Assembly: GCF_029207565.1 (NCBI RefSeq)
Contig: NZ_JANCMW010000007.1
Location: 62,001-126,000 of the forward strand
DNA from: Marinobacter iranensis
GTDB lineage: Bacteria; Pseudomonadota; Gammaproteobacteria; Pseudomonadales; Oleiphilaceae
Length of the DNA: 64,000 nucleotides
Direction: 5' to 3'
Shown here: positions 3,790-39,608 of the stretch, in pieces
How positions within the stretch are numbered: position 1 is the stretch's first letter
Layout of the letters: each line of letters opens with the position of its first letter
Translations under genes and position numbers: made by a program
Notes under the pieces: model-generated
What the model saw: only the letters and a program-made list of their open reading frames with translations
Told to the model about the DNA's origin: nothing
Database searches by the model: none

Positions 3790-6360
3790 TCACGACTTGA
3801 CCCGCTCGTTGTCCGGATCAAACAGCGGCCGGTAACCCACCGACTCGATGCGGATAGGGTAGTGTTCCTGGAAGTATTCCAGCGTCAGCTCCCGACCTTC
3901 CTGGGCATACTCCACCGGGATGTAGCCCAGCAGAATGATCTTGCCCACTGAAGGCCCCCAGACCACGCTGGTGTTGTAGGAGCGGCGGCCGTGGCTGTCC
4001 ACCAGCACCTCGCCGGTTTGCGGGTCCAGGATGGGCCACTGGCCCACCGGATAACGCAGTACGCCGTTGGCGTCCCGGTGCTCGGTCATGGTCATGGTGC
4101 AAAGGTATGCCGCCTGTTGGGGCCATTCCCGCTGTTCCAGGTAAGCGGCCTTGCCGTGGAAGTCCGCTTCCTTGACCTTGGGCCGCTGCAATCCAGCTTC
4201 GTAGAGGTTGTACTCAGTCTCCAGGTCCACGTTCTGCAGGCGCAGGCTCTTCTCCAGGCGCCGGGTGTTGGCGTAGGTTTCGATGCCAACCGGGGTAACG
4301 CCCGCGTCATAGAGCAGGTCCCAGATTCGCAGGCCATAGCTGAACGGGAAGTAAAGCTCCCAACCCTGTTCGCCCACGTAGGATATCCGGAACGCCCAGA
4401 TCGGAACGCCCTGAACGTTAAGCTCCCGGGCGGTGGCAAAGGGGAAGTTCTCCGCAGACAGCTCGTCCGGATTGGTGACGAACTGTGCCAGGGTTTCCCG
4501 CGCCTTCGGTCCCCAGAGTCCCAGGGTGGCCAGTTCGTCGGTACGGTCCTGCAGGTGGATATTCTCCAGGCCTTTCTCCCGGGCGATGCGTTTGATCCAG
4601 CAATGATCCCGGTGGCCAGTGTCGCCGCCGCAGACCACCCGGTAATCGTTGTCGCCCCGCCGGATGATGGTCAGGTCCGAGCGGATACCGCCGCGGGCAT
4701 CGAGGAAGTGGGTGTATACACCTTTGCCATGGGGAATGGTGCCGCCCACCTTGGCGACGGACAGGTATTCCAGCAGCGCTTCCGCGTCGTTGCCGGAGAT
4801 GTCGAAGATGGCGAAGTGGGAGAGGTTGATCATGCCCACGGATTCACTCATCTCCAACTGCTCGGCGTTGGACACTTCCCAGAAATGCCGGGCGTCCCAC
4901 TCATGTTCCCGCACCGGGATGCGGTCGCGGTATTTCGCCAACAGTGTGGCCTCGTTGGCGGCGTAGCCGTGGGCCCGTTCCCAGCCGGCGGCTTCCATGA
5001 AATAGGCCCCCAGCTCCACCTCTCGCAGGTAAAACGGGCTGGTCCGCATCCTGCGGCCGGTCATGTAGGGCTCACGGGGGTGAACCGCCGGGGTATAGAT
5101 CTTCTTGGCGGTTTCGTAGCAGCGGTTGTAGACATAGTCCGGCGTTTTCTGCAGCGGATAGTGGCGGGCGATGTCGATGCTGTGTGGGTCCATTTCCGGC
5201 GAACCATGGGTCATCCAGTCTGCCAACACCTTGCCCGCGCCGGGGCCGTCCTTGACCCAGACCGCCTCGCAGAACCACAGGTTGCGTACTTCCGGGGATT
5301 CCCCGATCAGAGAACCACCATCGGGCGTTACCGAGAGCAGGCCGTTGAAGGAGTGTTTTTCCTCCCAGCCCAGCTCACCGAGGATCGGGGTCATTTCGAT
5401 GGCTTTTTCGTAGGCGTCCATCACCTGGTCCAATGAAAGGTCCCGCATGGACGGTGACAGCCGCGCCTCGCCGGGCTCGACAATGGCGCCGGGATAGACC
5501 AGCCGTGGATTGTTCGTCTCGTAGTAGCCCCATTCAATGCGCCCACCTTCGGTGGTGGTGGGGTCGCCGGTGTCCCGGACATAGGCGGAGTTACCCTGGT
5601 CACGGAACAGCGGATAGACAATCTGCTTGCCGGTACCGGCCAGTTCCTCATACGGGCCGAAGAACAGCAGGGGGTGTTCCAGTGGCATCAATGGCAGGGG
5701 CGAATTGGCGGTGTTCGCCATCAGTGGCCCCCAGATACCCATGGACAACACCACGTACTCGGTTTCGATGTAGCCCTTGTGGGTTTCAACGCCGCGCACC
5801 TGGCCGTCCTGGACGTCGATGCGGATGGCCGGGGTGTAGGCAAAGGCCTTCAGCTTGCCGGTGGCTACGGCTTCCTCCACCAGATCGCCGGCCACGCTCT
5901 GGGAGCGGGGCACCACCAGCCCGGCGTCCGGGTCCCACATGGCGCCCTGGATCTGGCTCTCATCCAGTAACGGAAACAGTTCCTTCGCCTGCTGTGGCGA
6001 GATCATGCTGACATTGGTGCCAAAGGCTTTCCCGGAGCCCACCTTGCGGCGGAGTTCGTCCATGCGCTCATCGTCGTCAATGCGGGCCACCTCCATGCCG
6101 CCGCACTTCTCATAGTTGCCGCGCTTCTCATAGAAAGCCTGGCTGTACTTGGTAGTGTAGGTGGTCAGTTTGTCGTGGGAGGTAGTGAAGCAGAAGTCCG
6201 ACGCGTGGGAGGTGGAGCCGATGTCTGAGGGAATGGCGGATTTTTCCAGCCCTACGATGTCGTCCCAACCCTGCTCGATCAGGTGGTGGGCTACCGAAGA
6301 CCCAACGATACCGCCCTGTCCAATGATTACGACTTTTGCACGTTTCGGTAGTTGTGCCAT
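3790..6360 (-). CDS. FAD-dependent dimethylglycine/sarcosine dehydrogenase-like protein with GcvT domain
   Basis: Large flavoprotein of 856 residues. N-terminal Rossmann FAD motif V-V-I-I-G-Q-G-G-I-V-G-S-S at residues 10-22, then S-T-S-H-A-S-D, whose His lines up roughly with the covalent-FAD histidine of dimethylglycine dehydrogenases. The DAO domain is followed by an FAO-like linker and, from about residue 430, a GcvT/aminomethyltransferase fold ending in a GcvT C-terminal barrel. Such enzymes oxidatively demethylate dimethylglycine or sarcosine and pass the methylene group to THF, which fits the neighbouring fhs and MTHFR-like genes. Start at ATG 6360 with GGGGGG nine bases upstream; an upstream in-frame extension to 6444 lacks such a site. 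The exact substrate (dimethylglycine, sarcosine, or another methylated osmolyte) cannot be fixed from sequence. Confidence 0.82.
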   Translation of the reverse strand: MAQLPKRAKVVIIGQGGIVGSSVAHHLIEQGWDDIVGLEKSAIPSDIGSTSHASDFCFTTSHDKLTTYTTKYSQAFYEKRGNYEKCGGMEVARIDDDERMDELRRKVGSGKAFGTNVSMISPQQAKELFPLLDESQIQGAMWDPDAGLVVPRSQSVAGDLVEEAVATGKLKAFAYTPAIRIDVQDGQVRGVETHKGYIETEYVVLSMGIWGPLMANTANSPLPLMPLEHPLLFFGPYEELAGTGKQIVYPLFRDQGNSAYVRDTGDPTTTEGGRIEWGYYETNNPRLVYPGAIVEPGEARLSPSMRDLSLDQVMDAYEKAIEMTPILGELGWEEKHSFNGLLSVTPDGGSLIGESPEVRNLWFCEAVWVKDGPGAGKVLADWMTHGSPEMDPHSIDIARHYPLQKTPDYVYNRCYETAKKIYTPAVHPREPYMTGRRMRTSPFYLREVELGAYFMEAAGWERAHGYAANEATLLAKYRDRIPVREHEWDARHFWEVSNAEQLEMSESVGMINLSHFAIFDISGNDAEALLEYLSVAKVGGTIPHGKGVYTHFLDARGGIRSDLTIIRRGDNDYRVVCGGDTGHRDHCWIKRIAREKGLENIHLQDRTDELATLGLWGPKARETLAQFVTNPDELSAENFPFATARELNVQGVPIWAFRISYVGEQGWELYFPFSYGLRIWDLLYDAGVTPVGIETYANTRRLEKSLRLQNVDLETEYNLYEAGLQRPKVKEADFHGKAAYLEQREWPQQAAYLCTMTMTEHRDANGVLRYPVGQWPILDPQTGEVLVDSHGRRSYNTSVVWGPSVGKIILLGYIPVEYAQEGRELTLEYFQEHYPIRIESVGYRPLFDPDNERVKS

Positions 6361-6587
6361 CTTGACCCCCCCTTCTACACGCAATGAACGCCCACATGCA
6401 CTGCAGCATTTTCCCACAATACTTCGGGCACCGCCTCGGTTCAATGTGGCCCTGATCGCTTGGGGACGCTAAATCCAATACGACACCAAGGCGTCCAAAA
6501 GCGGCAAAGCGGGTCTTACCGTTTAAACCAACGCGGTTTTCAACAGAAACATTTGAGTGCATCGCCAATCGGAACTTTACTTGTTCC

Positions 6588-8318
6588 ATGGACAGGAAAG
6601 GTATTCAGCAGATCGTGTACCAGATCAGCACAGTGACGGTGTTGGCCATCATAGTGGGCACTGCCGCTTCGCTTGCGGCGATCGGCTTTGTCGATGCGGT
6701 GCATTATCTCAACGACCGCCTGTTGATCTCGCCCTACGCCCGCGTGCTGGCGGAAGACCGGCCGGGGTTTGTCGCGGTCGCAACTCTTCTTGTGCCGGCC
6801 GCCGGTGGGCTTGTTGTCGGCCTGATAGTTCATTTCCTGGTTCGTGAGAAGCGCGGGCTGGCGCCTCCGGATGCCATTCTGGCGGCGCAGACCAGTGGGC
6901 CCGCGCCAGGGTTCGGAAGTGGCCTGGCCTCCACGCTTGCGGCGCTGATTTCGCTCGGCAGCGGGGCGTCGGTAGGCCAGTATGGCCCACTGGTGTATCT
7001 GGGCGCGATGTTCGGCAACCTGGCCGGGCGGCTGCGGCTCAACCTGCGTCATCAACGTTCGATCGCCATTGCCTGTGGGGTGGCGGCCGCCATTTCCACC
7101 GCCTTTAACGCTCCGATTGCGGGCCTGGTGTTTGCCCACGAAGTCATCCTGCGCCACTACTCGTTACGGGCCTTTGCGCCGGTGACGGTTGCAGCGGCGA
7201 CGGGGTATATCATTGCCAATGTCATTTTCGATCGCCCTGCGCTGTTCCTGGTGAGTTTCGATCGCGTGGAGCACAGCTACGAATTCGTGTTCTTTGCCCT
7301 GGAAGGTGTGCTTTGCGCAGGTCTGGCCTGGGTGTTCATGGTTTTGCTGAAAGTCAGTGCCAACGTCGCCCGGCGTCACATTGCGCTGCCCTGGGCACGG
7401 CCGGCGATAGCAGGGTTGACGGTGGGGCTGGTGGCCCTGTGGATACCGGAGGTGCTTGGTATCGGGCAGGAAACCCTGCGCTTTGCCACCATCGAGGGCG
7501 CGTTCGGAATTGGCGAGCTGGGGCTGATCATTGTCGCCAAACTGGTGCTGACCGCGCTGTGTGTGGGGTTCGGCTTTGTTGGCGGAGTCTTCAGCCCAGC
7601 CCTGCTGATCGGCATTCTCTTCGGTGCTTTCTACGGCCTGGTTCTGCCTTACGTGGCGCCGGTGCCACACTCCGGCCTGGTGGTTTACGCCATATGCGGC
7701 ATGATGGCCCTGGCCAGTTCCGTCATCGGTGCGCCGCTGACCACCATACTGATTGTTTTCGAGTTAACCCGCAGTTACGACCTGACCATCGCAGCCATGG
7801 TGTCTGTAGTGTTTGCCAACCTGATTTCCTACCGGGTGATCGGGCGTTCGCTGTTTGATCTGCAACTGCGTGCCCGGGGGTTCGATCTTTCCCTGGGGCG
7901 CGATAAGGCGATCCTGGAAACCCACAGGATCCGGGACTACCTATCCAGCGTCTTCACCACGGCCAGCGACCAGGACACGGTGGGCACTGTTCGCCAGCGC
8001 CTGGTGGATGACCATCGTTCCGAGGCCATGGTCCTGAACCGGAAGGGCAAACTGCTGGGCGTGGTCAGGTTGCAGGGAATTGTAAACAGCAACGCGGAAA
8101 CCCCCGTGATGGATGCAGCCATTCGTTCCTTCACCACCTTCGGTGAAGATACTTCCGTGTGGCAGTCCATGGAAATGCTGCGTGGTTTCCTGGGCGAAGC
8201 GGTTCCGTTGGTGGACAGGAGCGGCCGGCTGATGGGGGTGGTTCCGGAGGAGGCAGTGATTCGGGCGTACCTGGAAATCGTGCACGACCTGCGAGAGGAA
8301 GAAAATGAAGCAGCGTAG
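6588..8318 (+). CDS. CLC-family chloride channel/transporter with C-terminal CBS pair
   Basis: Membrane protein of 576 residues: a CLC transport core to about residue 440 and a cytoplasmic CBS pair after it (A-M-V-L-N-R-K-G-K-L-L-G-V-V near 485, a second unit near 545). Conserved CLC features include the G-S-G-A-S-V-G segment and G-F-V-G-G-V-F-S-P-A-L-L-I-G. The usual G-R/K-E-G-P motif carrying the gating glutamate reads G-Q-Y-G-P at residues 130-134, so a tyrosine (codon 6981-6983) replaces the glutamate. In characterised CLCs loss of this residue abolishes proton coupling, so this may be a passive anion channel. Its end overlaps the start of the next gene by 14 bases. Confidence 0.9.
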   Translation: MDRKGIQQIVYQISTVTVLAIIVGTAASLAAIGFVDAVHYLNDRLLISPYARVLAEDRPGFVAVATLLVPAAGGLVVGLIVHFLVREKRGLAPPDAILAAQTSGPAPGFGSGLASTLAALISLGSGASVGQYGPLVYLGAMFGNLAGRLRLNLRHQRSIAIACGVAAAISTAFNAPIAGLVFAHEVILRHYSLRAFAPVTVAAATGYIIANVIFDRPALFLVSFDRVEHSYEFVFFALEGVLCAGLAWVFMVLLKVSANVARRHIALPWARPAIAGLTVGLVALWIPEVLGIGQETLRFATIEGAFGIGELGLIIVAKLVLTALCVGFGFVGGVFSPALLIGILFGAFYGLVLPYVAPVPHSGLVVYAICGMMALASSVIGAPLTTILIVFELTRSYDLTIAAMVSVVFANLISYRVIGRSLFDLQLRARGFDLSLGRDKAILETHRIRDYLSSVFTTASDQDTVGTVRQRLVDDHRSEAMVLNRKGKLLGVVRLQGIVNSNAETPVMDAAIRSFTTFGEDTSVWQSMEMLRGFLGEAVPLVDRSGRLMGVVPEEAVIRAYLEIVHDLREEENEAA

Positions 8319-9414
8319 CCCAGCGGTTTTCCAATGGTTGGTCATCGTCGTTCTGATGTTTCCGGCTGCCTCCCAAGCGCAGAGCGGGAGCCAGGAGCCT
8401 GAGGTGCTCACGGTGGTAACCTGGGGAGGCGCTTATGAAGACAGCCAGCGGCGGGCCTATTTTGAGCCGTTTACGGAAGCAACCGGGATAGACATCGAAA
8501 CGGTCCATTACGATGGTGGCGTGAAAGTACTGCGGGAGCATCTTGCCAGTGGCGACGTGGAGTGGGACGTCATCGACATGATCCAGTCCGACGCCAGTGC
8601 CGCCTGTGAGGAAGGTCTGCTGGATACCATTGATTCGACGATCCTGGCGCCGGCGCCCGATGGCACACCGGCACGGGAGGACTTCATGGAAGGCGCCATT
8701 CACCGATGTTTTATCACCCAGATCGTGTTTTCCACCGTGATTGCCTTTGACGACAGGGCTTTTCCCGGCGTTAAGCCCGACAGCGTGGAAGACTTTTTCA
8801 ACCTTGAGGCGTTTCCCGGAAAGCGGGCGCTGCGGAAATCACCGGTGGGACTGTTCGAGTGGGCGTTGCTGTCCCTGTCGGTACCCCGGGAGCAGCTCTA
8901 TGACCTGCTCAGCACCCGGCGCGGGCTGGAGCTTGCCTCCCGGCGGCTGGACGATATACGCGATGCCATTATCTGGTGGACCCGCGGTGACGAGCCGGTG
9001 GAACTGCTGACCAGCGGCCAGGCGACCATGGCAACGGGCTACAACGGTCGCTTTTTTCACGCCAGGGCCATGGAAGGCGCCCCCCTCTCGGTGATATGGG
9101 ACGGACAACTGATCGGCTTTAACAGTTGGACCATTCTTCGTGGTACGAGCCAGGCGGACCTGGCTGCGGACTTTATTGCCTTCGCAACCCGGGCGGAAAA
9201 TATGGCGGCCCAGGCCAACCTGATCAGCTATGGGCCAGCGCGAAAGTCGGCCCAGCGACGGGTAGGGCTGCATACCGATGCCGGCGTACCCATGCGCCCC
9301 TACATGCCAACGGCGCCCTCCCACATGGACAGCGCTGTTATCCGCGACCACCACTGGTATTCCCAGACGGTCGAGCTGCGTGAGCAGTGGTTCCGGGAAT
9401 GGCTGGAGCGCTGA
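8305..9414 (+). CDS. Periplasmic solute-binding protein, PotD/PotF-like
   Basis: Exported substrate-binding protein of 369 residues with a cleavable signal peptide (hydrophobic residues 10-24, cleavage near A-S-Q-A-Q). The mature part starts L-T-V-V-T-W-G-G-A-Y-E, typical of the spermidine/putrescine and iron-type extracellular binding proteins (SBP family 1/8). It contains W-D-V-I-D-M at about residue 90 and an S-P-V-G-L-F-E-W stretch later. It overlaps the CLC gene by 14 bases, so they are co-translated, but no ABC permease or ATPase gene is nearby. The ligand is unknown; a polyamine-like or other organic cation is only a family-level guess. Confidence 0.82.
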   Translation: MKQRSPAVFQWLVIVVLMFPAASQAQSGSQEPEVLTVVTWGGAYEDSQRRAYFEPFTEATGIDIETVHYDGGVKVLREHLASGDVEWDVIDMIQSDASAACEEGLLDTIDSTILAPAPDGTPAREDFMEGAIHRCFITQIVFSTVIAFDDRAFPGVKPDSVEDFFNLEAFPGKRALRKSPVGLFEWALLSLSVPREQLYDLLSTRRGLELASRRLDDIRDAIIWWTRGDEPVELLTSGQATMATGYNGRFFHARAMEGAPLSVIWDGQLIGFNSWTILRGTSQADLAADFIAFATRAENMAAQANLISYGPARKSAQRRVGLHTDAGVPMRPYMPTAPSHMDSAVIRDHHWYSQTVELREQWFREWLER

Positions 9415-9422
9415 CAGGGCGC

Positions 9423-10541
9423 TCAGGTGAGTTCGCAGGCTTCCGTAATAACCCGGTTGCGGCCCGCCGCCTTGGCCTGGTAGAGCATCGCGTCAGCGCG
9501 GCATATGGCATCACTGACGCCCTTGCCGGGTATGTACTCAGCGATGCCGACAGTTACGGTGACGGGGACGCCGGCAATAGCTGCTCTTTCAATCGCCCTT
9601 CGGCAACGCTGGGCGGCATGGCGTGCACTGCGAAGGTCCACGCCGGGGGTTGCCACCAGAAATTCGTCACCGCCCCATCTTGCGGCGAGATCCACCTCGC
9701 GAACAGTGTTGGACAGAATCTCCGCGAACCCGCAAATCACCGCGTCACCAACTTCATGGCCATGGTCATCATTGATGCTCTTGAACTCGTCAATATCAAT
9801 AAGAATGATCGTCAGTGGGCGTTGATAGCGGTCGGCCAGAGCGGCTTCGGCAGACAGGAACTGATCAGCGCCCCGACGATTTGCCAGACCACAGAGCGGG
9901 TCCGTATGGGCCCAGTGCTGCAGGGCTTCGGCCCGCGAGAAAGCGCTCCAGGTACGGTCACGCAGTAGGGTTCCCGCGCTGGTCAGGGCCAGCAGCACGG
10001 CAAGGAAAAGATGGATGCGCACCAGGTATACCCAGTTATGGCAGTACTCGCCTGCCGCCTGGAAACAACCGAAGACCTCGTGGGTTGCCAGGATTCCTGA
10101 AAACAGGAAGGTCGCTATCCCGATGATCATGCCGCCCCGATAGCCCAGGGTGATGAAACCGCCGACAATCAGTATGCCCACGGCCCAGTAATGCCCGCCG
10201 GCCAGCAACAGAAGGTGTTCGTTCAGCGGGTCGCTGAAGGTGAAATGCCAGGCGAGACGGCTCAGAATCATGGTTCCCACCGCTGCTACGAGGGTGATTT
10301 CCATTGTTCTGAGAGGGGAAGACTTGCGCCAGAAAGCGACGCTCAAGAGGGCGAGAATCGCTGAAAAAGCGGGGTAGGCCACGGCAATAAACGGATCGCC
10401 CTCTTCCCGGAATGCCCAGCTAAGCATCATGATGGCTATGGTGAGGGTGAGTACGCCGAGATAGGTGCGCCGCCGGTAGATTTCAAGACGGTTCAGTTCT
10501 GTTCTGACGGCGTGGAGATGGTTTCCGGGTGCTGGATCCAT
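9423..10541 (-). CDS. Membrane diguanylate cyclase (GGDEF)
   Basis: Makes cyclic di-GMP. 372 residues: five or six hydrophobic segments between residues 27 and 195 form a membrane sensor of no family I can name, then a GGDEF domain. The active motif G-G-D-E-F is at residues 290-294 and the allosteric I-site R-E-V-D sits at the correct five-residue distance before it (281-284), so product inhibition is expected. Convergent with the solute-binding protein gene, eight bases apart. No EAL domain is present. Confidence 0.92.
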   Translation of the reverse strand: MDPAPGNHLHAVRTELNRLEIYRRRTYLGVLTLTIAIMMLSWAFREEGDPFIAVAYPAFSAILALLSVAFWRKSSPLRTMEITLVAAVGTMILSRLAWHFTFSDPLNEHLLLLAGGHYWAVGILIVGGFITLGYRGGMIIGIATFLFSGILATHEVFGCFQAAGEYCHNWVYLVRIHLFLAVLLALTSAGTLLRDRTWSAFSRAEALQHWAHTDPLCGLANRRGADQFLSAEAALADRYQRPLTIILIDIDEFKSINDDHGHEVGDAVICGFAEILSNTVREVDLAARWGGDEFLVATPGVDLRSARHAAQRCRRAIERAAIAGVPVTVTVGIAEYIPGKGVSDAICRADAMLYQAKAAGRNRVITEACELT

Positions 10542-15429: not shown

Positions 15430-16611
15430 CTAGTGATCGCCCTCGCCCCACCAGCGGAACCTGAGCGGCATGGATGCACCGATCTGTACGTCTGGTGAGT
15501 CTTCGGTGACGCCAATGCCCAATGAAATGTCTGCAGTTTGTGAGTTGCTGATGGCAAAGGACCCGCCCACCGAAAAGGTTCCGGTTGTCAGGTAGGAGCC
15601 CGGAACGGCTTCGCCATCCAGACGGCTGCGTTCGGTAAACTGCTGGTCGTAGGCAAACGACAGCGAACTGGTCAGGTTCAGGGCAATAGCCGTACCGAGG
15701 GAGAAGCCTATGCTGTTTCCCGGCTCAAAGCGGCCCGCGTCTTCCCGCGTGGAGAGGTTCCAGCTGTAATTGGCGCCGCCAAAATACACCAGCGGGTCCA
15801 CCACCTTTACGCCGGTTAGGCCCAGGTTGATAGAATCATAGCCGCTTCCAAGGGCAATCGGGTTGCGTTCTGTTACATCAAACGGGCTGCGCCCACTGGT
15901 GGATTTCCAGCGCAGGCTGGCAAGAATATCCGGCCAACTACCTTCGCCATAAAGCAGCTGATGGCTGATGCCCAGGGAAATGTCACCCAGCCCATCGGCA
16001 CTGCTGATTGTTTCTTCATTGTCAGCACTAAATCTGCGTTCTTCGCTGTAACCATAGGGAATGCGAACATCCAGTTGTGAATCCCAGGGCAGGCCAATGC
16101 GGGTGGTCAGTGCGGCGGTCGTCTGGTTGCGCTTGACCCGTTCAGACACGATATCACCCACGACAAGTACCGGCAGGATGGTGAATCCGTCGATGACGAT
16201 ATTGTCGGCAGAACTGTGAGCGTATGACAGTGAAGGTTCGACATCGACTGTGCCGGGTGGCAGCAACAGTCCGCTGCGTTCAATCAGCGTTTGCTGGAAG
16301 GCGGTGCGCACCAGACGTTCCTGTTCACGTTGCTCTTCTTGGCTCAGTTCTGGCAGAGGCGGCGCTTGTGCTGGCGTCCCATCGCTCTGGCCGACAGCTG
16401 CATCCGGCCTGGATTGTTCGATATCCGAAACGCGCTGCTCCAGCAACAGAATTTTCCGGTTGAGCTGCTCGATCAGCCGGTTTTGCTGCTCAATAACACG
16501 GCGCAAGGTGTCTGTCTGTTCCGGTGGTATCAGATCTGTCTGTGCATTGAGGACACTGAAGGGCATCAGGCATACAGCCAGCACTGCCGTGAAGGACAAC
16601 CGGCGATGCAT
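15430..16611 (-). CDS. Outer-membrane beta-barrel with N-terminal coiled coil (FapF-like)
   Basis: 393 residues. Signal peptide to about residue 23, a heptad-rich coiled coil at 34-66 (L-R-R-V-I-E-Q-Q-N-R-L-I-E-Q-L), a Pro/Gln-rich linker, a short helix near 93-112, then alternating beta strands starting at L-L-P-P-G-T-V-D-V-E-P and ending in R-F-R-W-W, like MetA-pathway barrels. This order (coiled coil, plug helix, barrel) matches FapF, the outer-membrane pore that secretes functional amyloid subunits in Pseudomonas. It is the last gene of a five-gene operon, two bases after the C39 protease gene. The operon link to three secreted repeat proteins supports the secretion role; a general outer-membrane transporter is the alternative. 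Confidence 0.7.
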   Translation of the reverse strand: MHRRLSFTAVLAVCLMPFSVLNAQTDLIPPEQTDTLRRVIEQQNRLIEQLNRKILLLEQRVSDIEQSRPDAAVGQSDGTPAQAPPLPELSQEEQREQERLVRTAFQQTLIERSGLLLPPGTVDVEPSLSYAHSSADNIVIDGFTILPVLVVGDIVSERVKRNQTTAALTTRIGLPWDSQLDVRIPYGYSEERRFSADNEETISSADGLGDISLGISHQLLYGEGSWPDILASLRWKSTSGRSPFDVTERNPIALGSGYDSINLGLTGVKVVDPLVYFGGANYSWNLSTREDAGRFEPGNSIGFSLGTAIALNLTSSLSFAYDQQFTERSRLDGEAVPGSYLTTGTFSVGGSFAISNSQTADISLGIGVTEDSPDVQIGASMPLRFRWWGEGDH

Positions 16612-16613
16612 GA

Positions 16614-17315
16614 TTATCGCCTCGTGGCCGGCACCGGGCCGGCGCCGCGGCTTAGTCGGTAAACATAGTTGAGATCAGGCACACTCAGATGCATGGCCTC
16701 CGATGCCAGCGCAGCACGTCGTTTGTCGCTGGCATCGGCCGGTTCCACCACGAAGCCGATACCGCTGGTCCAGAACTGACGGAACTGGTGTTGTGAGAGT
16801 GTCAGGTTGCCGAAGGCCGGGTCGCCGATAAGCACCTTGCCTGCGGCAACTCCCCGGAAAACCACGAAGTGGTCCAGCCCCCGTATCCGAACCGGTAATA
16901 TCATCGGAGCGTCAAAATCCGCCAGATCTTCCAGGGCCAGTTCACCGTAACCATTTGCGGAGTACCCCACGGCTTCTGCGAAGCGTTTCAGGTCCAGCAG
17001 GGAAAATCCGCCACGCCTGCGCACCAGGGCGGGGTCGGTATTCGCGAGAATGCTGACCGCTATGGTCGCCTCACTGTATGGTTCGTTGTAGTCGTAGGTC
17101 AGTATGGTGCTGAGGGCCGCGGCGCCACAGCTGATGTCCCAGCCCTGACGCACAAGGTTACGTTCACGCAGTTCCAGAAACGAGCGGACCGGTGCCTGGA
17201 AGCGCGCGGCGTTGCTGTCAACGGAAACGCTGGCCGCATAAAGTGGGGCAGTCAGCCCGACACCCATGATCAGCATTGCCACCTGATAAAACCGGCAGAT
17301 AAAGCGGACAGTCAT
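16614..17315 (-). CDS. Periplasmic C39-family cysteine protease (FapD-like)
   Basis: 233 residues with an N-terminal signal or anchor (residues 9-28). Peptidase C39 fold without an ABC transporter: oxyanion Gln57, catalytic Cys63 in D-I-S-C-G-A-A-A-L, His149 in L-D-H-F-V-V-F-R-G and Asp165 in I-G-D-P-A-F-G. The R-G-G-F-S-L-L-D-L-K-R-F element around residue 101 is typical of FapD and related stand-alone C39 proteases. The start overlaps the stop of the preceding small gene by four bases (ATGA), so they are coupled. It likely processes the three secreted proteins encoded just upstream, each of which has a leader-like motif after its signal peptide. The site of cleavage is inferred. Confidence 0.8.
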   Translation of the reverse strand: MTVRFICRFYQVAMLIMGVGLTAPLYAASVSVDSNAARFQAPVRSFLELRERNLVRQGWDISCGAAALSTILTYDYNEPYSEATIAVSILANTDPALVRRRGGFSLLDLKRFAEAVGYSANGYGELALEDLADFDAPMILPVRIRGLDHFVVFRGVAAGKVLIGDPAFGNLTLSQHQFRQFWTSGIGFVVEPADASDKRRAALASEAMHLSVPDLNYVYRLSRGAGPVPATRR

Positions 17316-17743
17316 TTCAGACCGCCAATGCCCGTTATGCCAGATGGCAAACCGTTCAGGTTTGCCTGGTTAATGGCCCCGATACGGGAATCGATCGAGA
17401 TGTTCAGGTTCAGCAGCACGTTTACCGCTGAATTCACCGCGTTGATGTTAATCACCGAACCAAGGCCGCTTTGCGCACCGCCACTGAGGTTCAGGTAACC
17501 CGGCGCAATGCCTGGGCTGAACCCGGCCGCATACAGGCTTCCGTCGGCGGTAATAACCCGGCCGGAGCGGGTGGTTCTGACCACATCGAATGTCAGTATT
17601 TCCGTCCTGTCACTACCGGCGGCACCTGCTGTGATGGTGTGAAGTGTGGCATCATCCAGGGGTTGACGTTTTTCCGCCATAGCCTGCAAAGGCCAGCAGG
17701 CAACCAGGGCGACGAATACAGCCTTTTTCCATTGTCTGATCAT
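17312..17743 (-). CDS. Small secreted repeat-module protein, candidate amyloid-type subunit
   Basis: 143 residues starting at ATG 17743 (AAGGAG nine bases upstream). Signal peptide to about residue 23 (A-M-A), then a leader-like stretch P-L-D-D-A-T-L-H-T-I-T-A-G at residues 28-40. A single hydrophobic Asn-rich module follows at about 86-116 (S-G-G-A-Q-S-G-L-G-S-V, then I-N-A-V-N-S-A-V-N), with I-N-Q-A-N-L near 123. The same module occurs twice in each of the two larger proteins encoded upstream. I do not recognise a named family; a minor or nucleating subunit (FapB-like in position and size) is a hypothesis based on operon context. Confidence 0.7.
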   Translation of the reverse strand: MIRQWKKAVFVALVACWPLQAMAEKRQPLDDATLHTITAGAAGSDRTEILTFDVVRTTRSGRVITADGSLYAAGFSPGIAPGYLNLSGGAQSGLGSVININAVNSAVNVLLNLNISIDSRIGAINQANLNGLPSGITGIGGLK

Positions 17744-17769
17744 GACGAACTGCTCCTTTTGCGTCACGG

Positions 17770-19323
17770 TTACAGTCCGCCGATCTGGGTGAACTGGTTT
17801 TGTTGGTTCATTCTGTGTAGCGGCATTGCCGTGCCCTGGTGCGTTGTGGAAATGGCCGTGACATTAAGCCCGTTGCCTACCAGGGCTGATGCCGCATTCA
17901 CACCGTTGATTACCCGGGCACCCCGTTGGGACTGTCCACGAATCACCACCAGGTTGTAGCGCCGCTCCCTGGCAGAGGATTGCCTGATCACCGTCACACG
18001 TGATTGCCTGGTGCGCAGGCGTAGCTCGCCGCGTTCGCGTTTAACGTCATACGTCAGCAGGGATTCGTTGCTGGCGGATTGATGCTCGCGGGTCTGCGTG
18101 ATGGAGTGATTGTTGTATTCTACTCGGGTTGTTGTTGTGTCTATGGGGGCGCACTGGTTTTGTGTCTGACTGAACTGGCAGGTTTCACCAGCGCCAATCT
18201 GGCGATTGAAGCCGTCGGGTTCGGGGAAATCGATGCTTTCGTCCACCGGTATCTCGAACCCGGGCAGGTCGAGACTGTTAATGGCCGAGCCAACGTCCCC
18301 CAGTTCCGGCAGCAGGATGCCGAAAGTGAAATCGGCGAGGGTGCCCAGGTCGAGGGGAATGGCGCCCGAGAATTCAATACCACCGCTGTCAAAGGCAATG
18401 CTGCCATCGCCGGCGATGGCGTAGCCCAGTTCGACCCCGAGATCCCCCGCCGGGTTAACCCCTTCCAGAATGATATCGTCCAGTTGGACAGTGGCCCCCG
18501 TGAGCGTGACCTGAACGCCGTCACCCTCACCACAGGGCGGAATCAGACAGGCTGTGAATGTGACGTCGGGAATGCTCAGGCGAGGTCCTGAAAACTTAAC
18601 GTCGCTGCCTTCCAGAGTCACATTGCCCGGGAAAAACTCGGCCCCTGAAACAGTCAGGGTGGCGGGCAGCGGGAGATCGTAACCCAATACCTCCCAGCTA
18701 CCACCTATGGTGAAATCCGGCAGGGAAACGGGAGACACGCCGAGAGACACCGGCTCGTCAAAGAATCCTATCCGCCGGGGCGTAACGGTGGCATCGAGCC
18801 GTGTTGTGATGATTTCGGAGGACACCCGTTGATCAAACTGTGTCATCGATTCATGGATGTTTGAAGTGCTGCCAGCGTTGAAAACCACACGGGAGATCTT
18901 CTCGGTTACAGGGGCGCCGGCTTCAAAGTGTGCCAGGCGGGCAAGGTTGCCTGTTGTCTGGAATAAGCGATTTTCCTGGCTTAGCCGGGCGTCCAGAGGT
19001 GGTGAATCACGGCCTGAATGATAGAAATTCAGTGCCTGGATGCTGTCGGCACCACTGACATTGAGCAGGTTCATGGCCCGAACATCGGATTGAGCCCCGT
19101 TTTCCAGGGTTACCTGTTGCTGCTGTTTGTTATCGAGCGTGCCTTCCACAACCAGGCCGCTAGCCGGGTTGCCTGGCCGCATCGCCGCTGCGCTGGAGGC
19201 TGTGATGGCAGATAACCCCCGGTCATCGAGCGCAGCGGCCTCTGCCGGCTGACCCTGCAAAGCCAGGGTGATGATCAGTGTGAGGGCGGGCAACATGCCC
19301 ACCCTGATCATGAGAGCCGCCAT
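17770..19323 (-). CDS. Large secreted repeat-module protein, candidate amyloid-type subunit
   Basis: 517 residues with a signal peptide (to about residue 30) and a leader-like A-L-D-D-R-G-L-S-A-I-T-A-S at 31-43. One module (G-A-Q-S-D-V-R-A-M-N-L-L-N) is near residues 75-104 and a weaker one (R-G-Q-S-Q-R-G-A-R-V-I-N-G-V-N) near 462-490; the protein ends in a Gln/Asn-rich tail. The middle, about 350 residues, is strand-rich and has two short-spaced cysteine pairs (around the sequences C-L-I-P-P-C and C-Q-F-S-Q-T-Q-N-Q-C). Translation starts at ATG 19323 with GAGGGA upstream. Not assignable to a known family by eye. Second gene of the operon, 21 bases after the 398-residue paralogue. Confidence 0.7.
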   Translation of the reverse strand: MAALMIRVGMLPALTLIITLALQGQPAEAAALDDRGLSAITASSAAAMRPGNPASGLVVEGTLDNKQQQQVTLENGAQSDVRAMNLLNVSGADSIQALNFYHSGRDSPPLDARLSQENRLFQTTGNLARLAHFEAGAPVTEKISRVVFNAGSTSNIHESMTQFDQRVSSEIITTRLDATVTPRRIGFFDEPVSLGVSPVSLPDFTIGGSWEVLGYDLPLPATLTVSGAEFFPGNVTLEGSDVKFSGPRLSIPDVTFTACLIPPCGEGDGVQVTLTGATVQLDDIILEGVNPAGDLGVELGYAIAGDGSIAFDSGGIEFSGAIPLDLGTLADFTFGILLPELGDVGSAINSLDLPGFEIPVDESIDFPEPDGFNRQIGAGETCQFSQTQNQCAPIDTTTTRVEYNNHSITQTREHQSASNESLLTYDVKRERGELRLRTRQSRVTVIRQSSARERRYNLVVIRGQSQRGARVINGVNAASALVGNGLNVTAISTTHQGTAMPLHRMNQQNQFTQIGGL

Positions 19324-19344
19324 GGGATTGTTCCCTCTTCAGTA

Positions 19345-20541
19345 TCAGCGGCTGTGGTTGATTACATTGGTTTGATTGAGTGAGTATTGTGGTCCACTGG
19401 CCTTCATTGCCACGCCTGTTCCGGCACCCCGGCTGGTGGCAATGTTCACGCCATTGGCGACGGCACTGCCGGCGGCGTTGACCAGGTTCATCGCACGTAA
19501 TCCGGATTGTGCACCGCCGGACAGACTCACCAGGTAGGCCGTATTAACGTCAATGCTGGATTCATCCACCACAATGTACTCTGCCTGGGCGTCCTTCAGG
19601 GTGAAAGGTGCGCTGACGATCTCGTGTTCCACCTTGTCCCATGTTTTGCTGGTACTGCTGCTTTCATCCAGGGTATAGAGGGTAGAGTGGTCGCTGATCT
19701 GCTCGTCAGTCGTGGTTCGGCTGCCGTTAATGGTGCAACTGCCGTTCAGGGCAACACAGCCCATGGCGTCGAAGTCCAGATCCAGTTGAGGCAGGCCTAT
19801 ATCAACAGTAATGCCGGCATCGCCGGTATCTACCAGAATATTGCCCGCGTCTACACCGATATTCAGTTCACCGTTAAAGACCACTCCCACGGCCTTACTC
19901 GCACTGGGCGCATTGAACTCGACAGCGTAGGACCCGTTGCCGTCGAAAACCGGGTCGCCGGCCCCGAGTTCCAGGTCGCCATCCAGTTCCAGGCTGAATG
20001 TGGAGGCTTCCGAGAGGCTGAAGCCACCTTCTGTGGTGATTTGTTCCGAGGTGGTGTGTTGTTCAAGATTGGTTACTTGATCATACAGAGACGACGAAGT
20101 CTCGCTGCTATAGGATCCGGTGTTGGTTCTCAGGGTTTCGGTATTGGCGCCGCGCTCATAGGAGGGCAAAGACGAGAGTCGGCGCTGGTCCTGGGTAACG
20201 ACATTGCTTTGGGAAATCTCATACCCGGCAGCGGAAATCTCTGGGGTGCTGCCCCCATCGAACAAGTTGACTCCGTTGGCAACAGTGCTTTCGCTACTGT
20301 TGATAAAGTTCAGCGCGCGCACACCTGACTGGGATTCCTGTTCAATCCGGACTTCACCGGCAGACAGCAGGTTGGCCGTTGAACCATTACCCACGATAGC
20401 ACCGCCATTGGGTGCAGGAGTGCTGCCGGCGGCAGTGATTCTGTCAAGATCCTGACTATTCAGCGGAGTAGGGCCGGCAAGTGAAGTGCCTACGAAGGCA
20501 ATAGACATTGCCCCGGACAGGGCGAGGTAATAAAGATTCAT
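19345..20541 (-). CDS. Secreted repeat-module protein, candidate major amyloid-type subunit
   Basis: 398 residues, first gene of the operon. Signal peptide to about residue 23, leader-like P-L-N-S-Q-D-L-D-R-I-T-A-A at 26-38. Two clear modules: residues 69-94 (Q-S-G-V-R-A-L-N-F-I-N-S-S, then V-A-N-G-V-N) and 342-367 (Q-S-G-L-R-A-M-N-L-V-N-A-A, then V-A-N-G-V-N). Each is followed by a Y-x-I/L-x-Q-S/T-N-V-V/I strand; the last of these ends the protein. Between them is an acidic, Ser/Thr-rich linker with one cysteine pair. The repeat-linker-repeat plan recalls FapC, but I see no direct sequence match. A candidate sigma70 promoter lies 137-165 bases upstream. Confidence 0.72.
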   Translation of the reverse strand: MNLYYLALSGAMSIAFVGTSLAGPTPLNSQDLDRITAAGSTPAPNGGAIVGNGSTANLLSAGEVRIEQESQSGVRALNFINSSESTVANGVNLFDGGSTPEISAAGYEISQSNVVTQDQRRLSSLPSYERGANTETLRTNTGSYSSETSSSLYDQVTNLEQHTTSEQITTEGGFSLSEASTFSLELDGDLELGAGDPVFDGNGSYAVEFNAPSASKAVGVVFNGELNIGVDAGNILVDTGDAGITVDIGLPQLDLDFDAMGCVALNGSCTINGSRTTTDEQISDHSTLYTLDESSSTSKTWDKVEHEIVSAPFTLKDAQAEYIVVDESSIDVNTAYLVSLSGGAQSGLRAMNLVNAAGSAVANGVNIATSRGAGTGVAMKASGPQYSLNQTNVINHSR

Positions 20542-34801: not shown

Positions 34802-35626
34802 TCAGTGGCCGTAGACCCGCATGGAGGTGTTGCGGATGGCGAGGTTGTCCAGCCCCACCGAACCGATGGATGTGCCTCCTACCAGGACCTGGCCGATGGA
34901 CATGTCGGCTTCGAAGGTATTGATGTCGATTGCCAGGCTGTCGACGCCGGCTGCATTGGCATCCTTGTAGATATCCATATCGACAAGGGTAAACAGTGGC
35001 AGCAGCGAGGGATTGTCCGGATCGTAACCGGCGCCAGTGATACGCATGTCACGAATACCCAGGGCCATAAATGGCACATCCAGTTCCAGTTCGTCGATCG
35101 CAAAGCGGGTGGTCAGGTTGAGGGTGTCTGTATCGGTGTCCACCGTTGCCTGGGCCTGGAGAATGAGACCTTCGGCAGAGAAGTTGTCCGCCAGCAGGGT
35201 GCTCTCGCCCCCATTGCCCCTCAGTTCCCAGGCGCCGGTGCGAACCGCGAAGTCCACGGGCCGCGCGGTGATTGGGAATACGTTAATAATGGCGTCACCA
35301 TCATCGGCGACATCCAGTTCAATCTTGATGTTGTCGATCAGGTCCGTGCTGCTGGTGCCGAAGATGGCATCGCGACCGGCCGTGAATTCCTCGAACATGT
35401 CGATGCGGTTGGCACCGCCGATAAAGATGTCGCTGATACCCAGCGTGCCTTCATCGGTGTAGGTGAACTCGTCCATGGTGACCTGGGTTTCCAGCTCAAT
35501 GGTGACACCGGCCTGACCGGTGATCTGCCCCATGTCGGAGTCATGCAGTGGTTTGAGTTCGGCATACCCGCTGAGGGGCAGGCCGGCTATGGCTAACACT
35601 AACGCTGATTGCTTCAGGCTTGTCAT
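34802..35626 (-). CDS. Secreted ITGQ-leader protein (DUF6160/Fil-like)
   Basis: 274 residues: signal peptide to about residue 22 (S-G-Y-A), then L-K-P-L-H-D-S-D-M-G-Q-I-T-G-Q-A-G-V-T-I, the P-L-x-D-x-x-L/M-x-x-I/V-T-G-Q-A-G-V pattern seen in exported proteins of the DUF6160 and Acinetobacter Fil groups. The rest is strand-rich and acidic with repeated I-D-x-L/F patterns. Start at ATG 35626, nine bases after AGGAAGG; ATG 35635 is in frame but too close to it. It lies downstream of the ASH-repeat gene and probably shares its transcript. Surface or pilus-like function is inference. Confidence 0.7.
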   Translation of the reverse strand: MTSLKQSALVLAIAGLPLSGYAELKPLHDSDMGQITGQAGVTIELETQVTMDEFTYTDEGTLGISDIFIGGANRIDMFEEFTAGRDAIFGTSSTDLIDNIKIELDVADDGDAIINVFPITARPVDFAVRTGAWELRGNGGESTLLADNFSAEGLILQAQATVDTDTDTLNLTTRFAIDELELDVPFMALGIRDMRITGAGYDPDNPSLLPLFTLVDMDIYKDANAAGVDSLAIDINTFEADMSIGQVLVGGTSIGSVGLDNLAIRNTSMRVYGH

Positions 35627-35658
35627 TGTTATCATCCTTCCTGGTGTTGTTATTGTGC

Positions 35659-35692: not shown

Positions 35693-37504
35693 TCAGAGGT
35701 TCGGGGTCAATGTCAGGTCAATGCCATTGTCCGGACCGGCGAGGAACTGGTTCAGAACGTCGGTCAGCGGACCGCAGTTCTGCAGGGGTGGCAGGTCATA
35801 GTTGCCGGTAACGTCACCACCTTCGGAGAGTGAGAAGTTGGTGCCCTCAACCGATGCCAGCTCAATGTTGACCGGGTCGGCAGTGCGGCAGTCACGTCCG
35901 CCACCAACGGGGATCCTCAGGCCGAACAGGCGCACGGTGACCTTGGGCACTTCCACGTAGAGTGAAGAGTTGGCGGTCAGGTTTCCGTCGATCAGTGTGC
36001 CGGTGGTCACATCGGCCTGCTCGAACGTCACCCTGGCGTTGGCTGTCAGGCTCTTGAACAGCAGCGGAATCTTGAACTGACCCTGGGTCGGATCAAGAGC
36101 GAGATCAGCCTCGAACATGCCGGTAGCCAGCTCCAGTTGGGTCGCAATGCTGCCGGACAGCGGCAGTGAACTGCCAGAGGCCTTGATGTCGGTCTGTCCT
36201 TCCAGGTCCAGGAGAACCTCAAGTACATCATCAGTGCCATCATTGCCCTGACCACTCAGGGATACTGAGACATCCGGGGTTTCCGGGTCATCAGAGGCAA
36301 TGTTGAGGGTTGCGCTGCGTCCGCCGGCTGCGGAAGGCATGAAGCTGAGCTCAACCGTACAGCTTTCATCCTGCGCGACGGTTGTGCAGTCGTTGGTCTG
36401 GGTGAAGTCGCTGCTGTTGGTACCAGCAATCTCAATGGCGTTGATCATCAATGATGCACTGCCTTCATTGGCAATAGTGACCTGCGCGGTGGCTGTCTCA
36501 CCCAGCATCACGGAGCCAAAGCTGACGTCCTCGGGCGTAATGGTCATTTCCGGCACGGGCGCGAGCACGCTTGTGCCTGTCAACGGTACGTCCACTACTG
36601 GGGTTTCGGCATCGCCGGACTCAATGGTCAGAGTGGCATTCTGATCGCCTTCGCCATCCGGTATATAGGTGACGGTTACATCACAGCTCTCACCAGCGGC
36701 AACCGTTGTGCAACTGTTGGTCTGTGTATAGGCGGAGGCGTTATCGCCGCCAAGGCTGATGTTGTTAATGCCAAGCTCGGCCTGGCCGGTGTTGGAGATG
36801 GTAACCACCTCTTCCGACGTGGTACCGGCCTGCACGTTTCCGAAGTCGATACTTTCCGGACTGACCGCGATACGGGGTTCAAACTGCTCGTCGGGAACCA
36901 CCTGGATGGTTTGCAGGATGTTGTCCTGGCCAGCGTTCTGAACACACGCTGATGTGAATTCGCCGATGGGCGCAGGCGCAATGTCGCCGTTCTCAACACG
37001 CGCAATCATGTCGAGGGTAAGGCCGCCAATCGTTATAACCGCCTCACCAACATCGTCCTCGTTAAAGGTGATAGACGGAGAGGTGCCCTGGGCCGGTACG
37101 GTAAATTCGCCGGTTTCATCGGGAATCGGCGACTGGGGAATGGTCAGCGGTACCGTCAGGTCGATTTCGCGATTCGGCGTGACAACCGTTGTTTCATTGG
37201 TGGCGGTGCCCTCAATGGTGGCGGAACCCACCAGTTTAAGGCCCAGTCGCGAATCTTCGTTCACCGTGGTAATGGCGTCTACGGTGAATTCCGGGGTTGG
37301 CTCACCCACCGTTGCCTGGGTAGGCACGTCGGCACTGATCTGGGCCCGAATGGGCTGTTCGCCAATCAATGGGAAAGGGCAGGTGAATTCCAGTTCCAGT
37401 GACACCGGTTCGGCAAACGCGTTGCTCCCGCCGGTCATAAGCGCCGCGGCTGCTATTGCAGTACCGAGCGTGCGGACGCTTTTGTTGGGATTCCTGAGTT
37501 TCAT
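35693..37504 (-). CDS. Secreted protein with two ASH-like (choice-of-anchor D) repeats
   Basis: 603 residues with a signal peptide (to about residue 31). Residues about 32-205 form a strand-rich domain with one early and one late cysteine. Then come two tandem immunoglobulin-like ASPM-SPD2-Hydin/choice-of-anchor D repeats at about 213-312 and 316-415, each with I-x-x-x-x-F-G-x-V/S, T-I-S/A-N-x-G, and a cysteine pair (N-S-C-T-T-V-A-A-G-E-S-C and N-D-C-T-T-V-A-Q-D-E-S-C). The C-terminal 185 residues form another beta domain. Start ATG 37504 with GAGGAC upstream. Probably cell-surface or periplasmic; partner of the ITGQ protein by context. Confidence 0.78.
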   Translation of the reverse strand: MKLRNPNKSVRTLGTAIAAAALMTGGSNAFAEPVSLELEFTCPFPLIGEQPIRAQISADVPTQATVGEPTPEFTVDAITTVNEDSRLGLKLVGSATIEGTATNETTVVTPNREIDLTVPLTIPQSPIPDETGEFTVPAQGTSPSITFNEDDVGEAVITIGGLTLDMIARVENGDIAPAPIGEFTSACVQNAGQDNILQTIQVVPDEQFEPRIAVSPESIDFGNVQAGTTSEEVVTISNTGQAELGINNISLGGDNASAYTQTNSCTTVAAGESCDVTVTYIPDGEGDQNATLTIESGDAETPVVDVPLTGTSVLAPVPEMTITPEDVSFGSVMLGETATAQVTIANEGSASLMINAIEIAGTNSSDFTQTNDCTTVAQDESCTVELSFMPSAAGGRSATLNIASDDPETPDVSVSLSGQGNDGTDDVLEVLLDLEGQTDIKASGSSLPLSGSIATQLELATGMFEADLALDPTQGQFKIPLLFKSLTANARVTFEQADVTTGTLIDGNLTANSSLYVEVPKVTVRLFGLRIPVGGGRDCRTADPVNIELASVEGTNFSLSEGGDVTGNYDLPPLQNCGPLTDVLNQFLAGPDNGIDLTLTPNL

Positions 37505-38969: not shown

Positions 38970-39608
38970 TTGAAAGCCCGTTGTCCGGTTTGTGAAACGC
39001 CCGCACTGGTGCCGTTTCAAACAATTAACGAAACACCGTATTACCGTTGTGAATATTGCGAGGCAACGGTGATGGATTCGTTGTGTTGGCTGGATAAACG
39101 TCAGGAAAGGGAAGTCTACGACCTTCACGACAATAACCCGGAGGATGAGGGATACCGACGCTTTCTTTCCAGATTAACCAGCCCGTTGCTGGAACGATTG
39201 GAACCAGGTGCCAGTGGACTGGATTTTGGTTGCGGGCCCGGGCCGGCGCTGGCCGGAATTCTGGAGGAGGCAGGCATGGATATGGCGCTCTATGATCCGT
39301 TCTTTTACCCGGAAGCCTCTGTTCTGGAATGCCAGTACGACTTTATTACCTGCACGGAGGTGGTGGAGCACCTGCATCACCCGGCAGAGACGTTCCGGCG
39401 GCTGGACAAACTGCTGAGGCCCGGTGGCTGGCTGGGTATCATGACCTGCTTCCAGACCGACGACCACCGGTTTGCCAACTGGCATTACCGCCGTGACCCG
39501 ACCCACATTGTGTTTTACCGGCAATCCACAATGGCCTGGATGGCAAGCGCATACGGGTGGACACTTGATGTTCCTGCCAAGGATGTGGCGCTGTTCCGGA
39601 AAAATTAG
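38970..39608 (+). CDS. SAM-dependent methyltransferase with N-terminal zinc ribbon
   Basis: 212 residues. N-terminal C-P-V-C ... C-E-Y-C zinc ribbon (residues about 5-33) and a class-I methyltransferase with L-D-F-G-C-G-P-G-P near residue 83, C-T-E-V-V-E-H-L-H and L-L-R-P-G-G-W-L-G. I prefer the TTG start at 38970 because a perfect AGGAGG lies seven bases upstream; the ATG at 38928 has none. Methyl acceptor unknown. Its end overlaps the convergent PA2778-type gene by four bases. Confidence 0.85.
   Translation: MKARCPVCETPALVPFQTINETPYYRCEYCEATVMDSLCWLDKRQEREVYDLHDNNPEDEGYRRFLSRLTSPLLERLEPGASGLDFGCGPGPALAGILEEAGMDMALYDPFFYPEASVLECQYDFITCTEVVEHLHHPAETFRRLDKLLRPGGWLGIMTCFQTDDHRFANWHYRRDPTHIVFYRQSTMAWMASAYGWTLDVPAKDVALFRKN

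Follow-up and report, generated by a model that had tools for sequence, protein, structure and literature searches.

A second, double-glycine-type leader behind the signal peptides of three secreted proteins in a Marinobacter operon with a lone C39 protease and a FapF-type barrel

The stretch of DNA analysed here, referred to below as the window, comprises 64,000 nucleotides of Marinobacter iranensis (assembly GCF_029207565.1, contig NZ_JANCMW010000007.1, positions 62,001 to 126,000), and our subject is an operon of five minus-strand genes at 15430-20541 of the window that encode, in order of transcription, three secreted subunits (P5, P4 and P3), a stand-alone C39 protease and a FapF-type outer-membrane barrel. 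Each of the three subunits carries, directly behind its signal peptide, a second leader of the double-glycine type (L-12, L-7, I-4, A-2). This leader is what is new here; a first-pass annotation of the window, which had described the locus as a divergent Fap-like functional amyloid operon, missed it. Judged from sequence, it is likely that the operon works as a self-contained unit that secretes three surface or fibre proteins, whose leaders would be cut by the periplasmic C39 protease and whose passage through the barrel would be licensed by that cut.

The five open reading frames (ORFs) are tightly packed, as had been claimed with a limit of 27 bases: the gaps are 21, 2, -4 (an ATGA overlap) and 2 bases in transcription order, and all five products have signal-peptide-like N-termini when read by eye. 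P5, the first gene (19345-20541, 398 amino acids), has 11 relatives that are 23-55% identical, and its leader, LNSQDLDRITAA, spans residues 27-38 (20428-20463). P4 (17770-19323, 517 amino acids) has the leader LDDRGLSAITAS at residues 32-43 (19195-19230), and P3 (17312-17767, 151 amino acids) has LDDATLHTITAG at residues 37-48 (17624-17659). The genes for the protease (16614-17315, 233 amino acids) and the barrel (15430-16611, 393 amino acids) follow.

The canonical double-glycine leader has the consensus L-12, E-8, L-7, I/V-4, G-2, G-1. In the form L-12, L/M-7, I/V-4, G/A-2, G/A/S-1, this spacing is present in all three subunits. C39 domains are described as cutting at GG and sometimes at GA (PMC5557850; this and all other literature is cited from excerpts). 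The leader recurs in 26 of 27 aligned P3, P4 and P5 sequences, the window included, the exception being the P4 of locus L051, which has Pro at -2, and it is more conserved than the mature part in P5 (48% versus 34% identity) and P4 (43% versus 27%), with only a small excess in P3 because the values there are 51% and 46%.

The same pattern is enriched around related proteases. A scan covered 80 loci, namely the window and 79 of 80 fetched relatives (L071, in which no C39 ORF could be located, was left out), and compared signal-peptide-like ORFs that share the strand of the C39 gene and lie no more than 4.5 kb from it with control ORFs elsewhere in the same loci. The pattern was found in 108 of 307 near ORFs as against 12 of 394 controls, an approximately 11-fold difference (Fisher test, 4e-31), and at least one leader ORF occurred at 47 of the 80 loci. 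With its 108 near matches the canonical spacing beats 209 other spacings (mean 11), the next best, with 72, being an overlapping register; the commonest residues of the matches read L-[TS]-[DA]-x-[QE]-[ML]-D-x-[VI]-T-A-G. The scan pattern was defined after the window leaders had been seen, and the pattern used for FapE after the FapE sequences had been seen, and the hit rates are therefore descriptive, guarded by the comparison of spacings and by the ORFs far from the C39 genes. An earlier version, which required a basic n-region and of the window's three subunits failed to pick up P3 and P5, gave 77 of 191 near ORFs versus 5 of 140 far ones.

The residue at -2 tracks the protease. Within the C39 clade of the window it is Ala in 85 of 88 leaders, and elsewhere it is Gly in 29 of 38 (p 2e-16), where "elsewhere" means all rows outside that clade, a few evident chance matches included; the latter count becomes 27 of 36 after removal of two stretches counted twice (L133/L141 and L131/L145). 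Of the computational hints that the protease recognises the leader, this clade-linked residue is the strongest. The source genome has three C39 proteases of the lone type: that of the window, one at a locus labelled C219 and one labelled C43. The C219 protease scores best with the FapD model (E 2.4e-42) and stands alongside a FapF-like barrel and two small leader proteins, whose leaders end GR (with Ser at -4) and GG; the FilB-like C43 protease is followed by a FapF/FilC-like gene and, by eye, a FadL-like gene. The three proteases of this genome thus correspond to three kinds of leader, which end A-[AGS], G-Q (in one case G-A) and G-[GR]. Next to the C219 locus of this genome (L005, 8966-9865) lies a gene for a low-complexity secreted protein with DNSDNS repeats, in which no leader was found, and genes of this type are similarly placed in L022, L032, L033 and L041. 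In another genome, two C219-type C39 genes with equal match scores lie about 2.9 kb apart (G013:C11:1029316-1032866), an apparent recent tandem duplication.

The first-pass annotation had recognised the protease by its intact Q57, C63, H149 and D165 and the barrel by its coiled coil, and both identifications stand. The protease matches Pfam PF03412 with E 5.4e-18 (65.6 bits against a cut-off of 22), and the four residues are invariant in all seven aligned lone C39 proteases. Among NCBIfam models it scores 118 bits with FilB (E 5e-34) and 112 bits with FapD (E 2.6e-32), under the respective cut-offs of 475 and 330 bits (the latter for the FapD equivalog model NF058616). The peptidase domains of ABC transporters and bacteriocin exporters, which we take to be those of PCAT1, LahT and ComA, are more distant (E 3.5e-7 to 1.3e-3), and the NCBIfam FapD model far outscores the ABC-transporter C39 models. 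The barrel matches the solved FapF structure 5o65 over residues 118-383 (E 1.3e-26) and the NCBIfam FapF model over residues 13-383 (E 8.5e-38), the coiled-coil part included; the coiled coil itself, at about residues 31-66 (16414-16521), is predicted by eye and has weak matches to coiled-coil families in Pfam. For the MetA-type barrel family PF13557 the match (E 0.00061) is far weaker than for FapF and does not reach that family's own cut-off; the profile comparison that the first-pass annotation had named as a possible refutation, with MetA-type barrels and other C39 proteins as rivals, thus came out in favour of FapF and FapD. FilC also matches (E 1.4e-23); the barrel lies under the equivalog cut-offs of both, at 130 bits against 700 for FapF (NF058560) and 84 bits against 630 for FilC. 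On these scores, protease and barrel appear to be kin of the wider FapD/FilB and FapF/FilC superfamilies and not of Fap specifically, because the protease scores slightly better with FilB than with FapD. The pairing is general, a barrel ORF lying within 5.5 kb in 77 of the 79 fetched relatives that have a C39 ORF. Elsewhere in the window, 39605-40606 (minus strand) encodes a lipoprotein-like product whose N-terminal domain is C39-like (PF03412, 33.4 bits) and whose C-terminal part, by eye, is apparently TPR-like; it is absent from the lone C39 proteases found with the C39 alignment.

A quick C39 tree of 107 rows, with support from the Shimodaira-Hasegawa-like approximate likelihood ratio test (SH-aLRT) only and with the Fil rows thinned from 28 to 8 (127 rows to 107), places the window protease in a clade of 13 rows, itself included (support 95), which we call the QSG clade after the module shared by the subunits. 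Its sources are Proteobacteria, a metagenome-assembled genome (MAG) of Desulfobulbaceae and Acidobacteriota; L054 and L055 sit on long branches, and their joining was flagged by the program. The clade joins (98) a large clade whose members mostly adjoin genes for small leader proteins, and it lies apart from the Pseudomonas-type FapD (100) and Fil (98) clades, as does the C219-type C39 from the Pseudomonas FapD. L095, from an Aquificota MAG, falls outside it although a P5-like gene is present there. In the same set, a contig binned as Bathyarchaeota (L081) has a C39 that groups closely with that of the gammaproteobacterial L076 and adjoins a barrel; it is probably misbinned.

The relatives were taken from a profile search of genome contigs that returned at least 594 stretches, 578 of them confirmed, of which the best 80 loci were kept, so that distribution counts are lower bounds. 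Within this best 80 of at least 594, the close relatives on the window's branch (57-67%) come from a Desulfobulbaceae MAG, a proteobacterial MAG, a Pseudomonadales MAG and Ectothiorhodospira haloalkaliphila, and the further ones from a gammaproteobacterial MAG (46%) and Acidobacteriota (43-52%). The five-gene order is conserved in L051, L053 and L054, and Edaphobacter L057 has P5-like, P3-like, C39 and barrel genes. Closer to home the operon is scarce: 107 of 120 genomes of the genus have a C39 of the lone type among the matches listed, and besides the window's own none of these listed matches, sorted by score, is more than 40% identical to it; the P5 model matches in 2 of 369 genomes of the class, the source genome included. 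By these comparisons the QSG operon is a distinct, rare and dispersed branch, in agreement with the branch that the first-pass annotation had proposed, and its rarity in genus and class is compatible with horizontal spread or loss.

Leaders of the same kind are found well beyond this branch. All 11 ORFs recognised by a FapE model (in 10 of 293 genomes of the order) have a signal peptide followed by a leader, for example LKDSEMAELRGR, and so has the FilA protein of Acinetobacter baumannii (MDDAALSAATGQ). Apart from P3, the source genome yields nine DUF6160-type matches, of which two score below the Pfam cut-off; all nine have leaders, ending GQ in eight cases and GA in one. The genes for these proteins and for the FilB-type C39 lie on separate contigs, most of the DUF6160 genes being several kb or more from the contig ends. 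Across 120 genomes of the genus, 93 have both DUF6160 and a FilB-type C39 and 22 have neither; four have DUF6160 only (G106 and G107, which are 76% and 82% complete, and G040 and G072, with weak matches) and one has the C39 only (G026, a partial match), a co-occurrence with a Fisher value of 5e-19. Thirteen genomes have only another lone C39, and DUF6160 is absent from 12 of them. For the order (293 genomes of 300 asked for), 37 genomes have both, 1 DUF6160 only, 18 the C39 only and 237 neither, or 27, 1, 17 and 236 when the window's genus is left out. Which protease serves the dispersed leader proteins is a matter that we infer from sequence. One candidate lies in the window outside the operon: the FilA/DUF6160-like gene at 34802-35635 (minus strand), with a signal peptide and the leader LHDSDMGQITGQ, could be a client of the FilB-type C39, whose gene is on another contig; on this strand the neighbouring long ORF spans 35693-37504. 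A cluster in L015 (G000:C433:200000-210619, at 4905-10155) encodes four leader proteins of 182-799 amino acids near the end of a contig that has no C39 match; one of the four was seen solely in L013.

The mature subunits are a different matter. P3, P4 and P5 share a module, QSGxRAxN, in five copies by a profile for which the C-terminal module of P5, together with ten relatives, served as input, which bears out the earlier claim of three secreted proteins with a shared repeat. The copies lie in P5 at residues 71-92 (20266-20331, 24.6 bits) and 336-368 (19438-19536, 58.5 bits, a training row), in P4 at residues 71-91 (19051-19113, 17.5 bits) and 459-488 (17860-17949, 16.5 bits) and in P3 at residues 92-114 (17426-17494, 9.0 bits, the weakest copy), all above the top score of 7.1 bits reached when the three mature proteins were shuffled 200 times. 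The C-terminal part of P4 is homologous to P5 (hhalign E 4.8e-21). FapE had been reported missing from the operon, and it is: no NCBIfam model matched P3, P4 or P5 up to E 10 (the HMMER filters discard most weak matches), and hhalign gives the mature proteins probabilities of 0.3-0.5% against 11 FapE sequences. P3 was considered as a FapE homologue and rejected at 0.5%. Against five FapC-like ORFs, picked by repeat motif, the probabilities are 0.0-0.2%. The FilA/DUF6160 family was detected by Pfam in neither P4 nor P5, and in P3 only below threshold (E 0.0091, 16.7 bits against a cut-off of 27) over residues 13-47, that is, the signal peptide and leader. No bacteriocin family matched the three subunits in the Pfam or NCBIfam scans, and PHROGs gave nothing for them. 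What stands of the Fap-like amyloid label is thus the FapD/FapF-type protease and barrel pair; its kinship extends to the FilB/FilC superfamilies, and the subunits match neither FapE nor FapC-like proteins, which is why "functional amyloid" is, for P3-P5, an analogy.

A sequence of events can be envisioned for these proteins. The three subunits would enter the periplasm via Sec, as their signal peptides suggest, and removal of the signal peptide would expose the double-glycine-type leader at the new N-terminus. The periplasmic C39 protease would then bind the leader through L-12, L/M-7 and I/V-4 and cut after A-[A/S/G], about a dozen residues behind the signal peptidase site, which would let mature P5 begin at residue 39 (GSTPA), P4 at residue 44 (SAAAM) and P3 at residue 49 (AAGSD), and the cut subunit would be licensed for the FapF-type barrel, by analogy with Fap, where the C38A exchange of the catalytic Cys of the periplasmic FapD abolishes secretion (PMC5557850). 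Outside the cell the QSG modules, as strand-like repeats, might form or decorate a fibre or matrix, which is the weakest step. The same tandem logic of Sec and a GG-type leader seems to be at work in Fap, where the client would be FapE, in Fil, where it would be FilA, and in many unnamed loci. With only moderate confidence, we therefore lean towards a single two-ticket route for Fap, Fil, nap and QSG operons and a large set of unnamed loci, in which export by Sec comes first and a lone C39 protease then cuts a bacteriocin-type leader, the cut giving access to a FapF-type channel. The substrate of FapD would then be FapE, cut after R-G-[RK], and three such proteases could be at work side by side in a single genome, each paired with a different ending of the leader (A-[AGS], G-Q or G-[GR]) and some with clients dispersed in the genome.

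Other explanations have to be weighed. In its mechanism the operon could be a genuine branch of Fap, with a C39 protease that cuts the barrel or another factor and a leader that acts as an uncut docking or targeting motif for the channel; cutting of the FapF linker was raised by Rouse et al., who also mention non-catalytic C39-like domains in type I secretion systems that are maybe substrate chaperones (PMC5557850). We consider this unlikely, given that the catalytic residues of the protease are intact, that the motif has the spacing of C39 leaders with Gly or Ala at -2 before differing mature proteins, that the -2 residue follows the protease clade, and that in the source genome nine DUF6160-type proteins with the motif are encoded on contigs other than that of the FilB-type C39. 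It is also doubtful that the operon is a bacteriocin-like or peptide export system whose products are secreted effectors and not fibres. The leader is indeed of the GG type, the members of the sister C39 clade adjoin leader proteins of mostly less than 300 amino acids, and the gonococcal nap island couples GG peptides with the C39 protease NapP and the FapF-related NapF (PMC11798529); however, P5 and P4 are 398 and 517 residues long with repeated strand-like modules, the five genes are all accounted for with no immunity gene among them, and the subunits lack a bacteriocin family match. That the leader pattern is a chance product of composition behind signal peptides, unrelated to the protease, seems very improbable: the pattern is short and degenerate, and 12 of 394 control ORFs do match, but these stand against 108 of 307 near ORFs, the earlier scan gave 77 of 191 against 7.4 expected from shuffles, and the leader is kept in three proteins across phyla.

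Several observations weigh against the reading that we prefer, in which the C39 protease cuts the leaders as the pass for the barrel. The cutting itself is something that we infer throughout. Of the analysed C39 loci, 33 of 80 have no leader ORF in the scan (some of these probably have clients elsewhere or deviant leaders), and the near and control pools both include unreal ORFs. Shared descent of neighbouring genes could also produce the link between -2 residue and clade, and the genome counts are non-independent, shared ancestry inflating the p-values for co-occurrence; in part of the order genomes, moreover, DUF6160 adjoins the C39 gene. Outside the window's clade, position -4 deviates to Gln in 2 of the 11 FapE leaders and to Ser in one of the small C219-locus proteins. 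Within Fap, where the inspection covered FapE and one FapC-like subunit, the leader was seen in FapE only, being absent from the FapC-like subunit (named by eye) of the Pseudomonas-type stretch L141, and so cutting would not be needed by every secreted subunit there. As to fibres, structure prediction for P5 and P4 lends no support to fibre or amyloid formation, the AlphaFold models (mean predicted local distance difference test scores 39.5 and 43.9) being mostly strands and unusable, and P4 may contain a globular domain. Amyloid formation by the operon products is the least certain part of the picture.

Both low-confidence models place a short helix on the leader (P5 residues 29-34, P4 residues 34-39). 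The central part of the P4 model (residues 184-370, 18214-18774 on the minus strand) gives weak structure matches to Der f 7, Der p 7, BPI and LBP (Z 5.2-6.2, root mean square deviation 4.1-5.5, 139-154 residues aligned), which are presumably TULIP-type lipid-binding folds and perhaps reflect just a common arrangement.

The operon is flanked on one side by a convergent DUF1318 gene and on the other by a divergent gene with sub-threshold matches of methyltransferase type. A promoter scan gave 1 site as against 2.3 in shuffles, and no terminator-like site was found at the 3' end of the operon. Recent acquisition was considered and rejected for lack of support, both by GC content (57.5% in the operon versus 58.6% in the window) and by way of plasmids: in 72,556 plasmid records P5 has no match, and the C39 protease has matches in 97, each below 60% identity. 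On one plasmid, the 6.3 kb mobilizable plasmid of Acinetobacter sp. TR11 (L152), a lone C39 gene and a gene for a signal-peptide protein with a leader-like LSNQEMKDTQGA, seen by eye, lie at 404-2033; the plasmid annotation lists no barrel gene.

The likely membership of FapD and FapF in larger families has been pointed out (Dueholm 2013, PMC3792158, where FapA is also described as optional in Fap), and fapD-fapF pairs were reported from five further phyla (Rouse 2018). The substrate of FapD was left open in 2017 and 2018 (PMC5557850, PMC6173800), the first of these papers noting that the first ~70 residues of FapE were unseen by mass spectrometry, and a 2025 review holds that FapD is thought to process the FapE N-terminus. 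FilA is a deduced component of the Fil fimbria of Acinetobacter sp. Tol 5 (PMC3498257). For the nap island, the proposed model is that NapP cleaves the GG peptides in the periplasm, after which they exit via NapF (PMC11798529). Within excerpts of the open PubMed Central literature, we found no leader described for FapE, FilA or DUF6160, no case in which cutting by a lone C39 protease of the periplasm had been tested, and neither the clade-linked leader endings nor the QSG operon. The leader is a concrete candidate for the recognition sequence of FapD. As it is common to FapE, FilA and P3-P5 and follows the protease clade, it predicts a cut site in each, for which a peptide assay is possible. 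Numerous DUF6160 proteins and small leader proteins that are so far uncharacterised are suggested as clients of the route, and the three endings may represent a natural set of possibly orthogonal protease and leader pairs for outer-membrane secretion.

Set beside the known systems, the QSG operon shares with peptidase-containing ABC transporters the C39 peptidase domain and the logic of the double-glycine leader, but it has no ABC transporter, and its protease has a signal peptide and would act after Sec. The nap island of Neisseria gonorrhoeae (NapP, NapF, NapA-C) resembles it in products with a GG motif, a C39 peptidase, a FapF-related channel and proposed periplasmic cutting, whereas nap products are small cationic peptides linked to autolysis; this likeness is drawn from description, not from sequence (PMC11798529). 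The Fil system of Acinetobacter (FilABCDEF) contains the other named relatives of the protease and the barrel, FilB and FilC, and FilA likewise has a signal peptide and leader; in contrast, the mature QSG subunits have no FilA/DUF6160 domain, the operon has no FadL-like, FilE or FilF gene, its C39 belongs to another clade, and FilA-type leaders mostly end GQ. With Fap the operon has in common a FapF-type coiled-coil barrel and a stand-alone C39 protease with a signal peptide, encoded together with secreted subunits, and FapE, like P3, P4 and P5, carries a signal peptide and a GG-type leader; it differs in that its C39 falls in a different clade, its mature subunits match neither FapE nor FapC-like proteins, and all three of its leaders end A-[AGS], whereas those of FapE end G-[RK].

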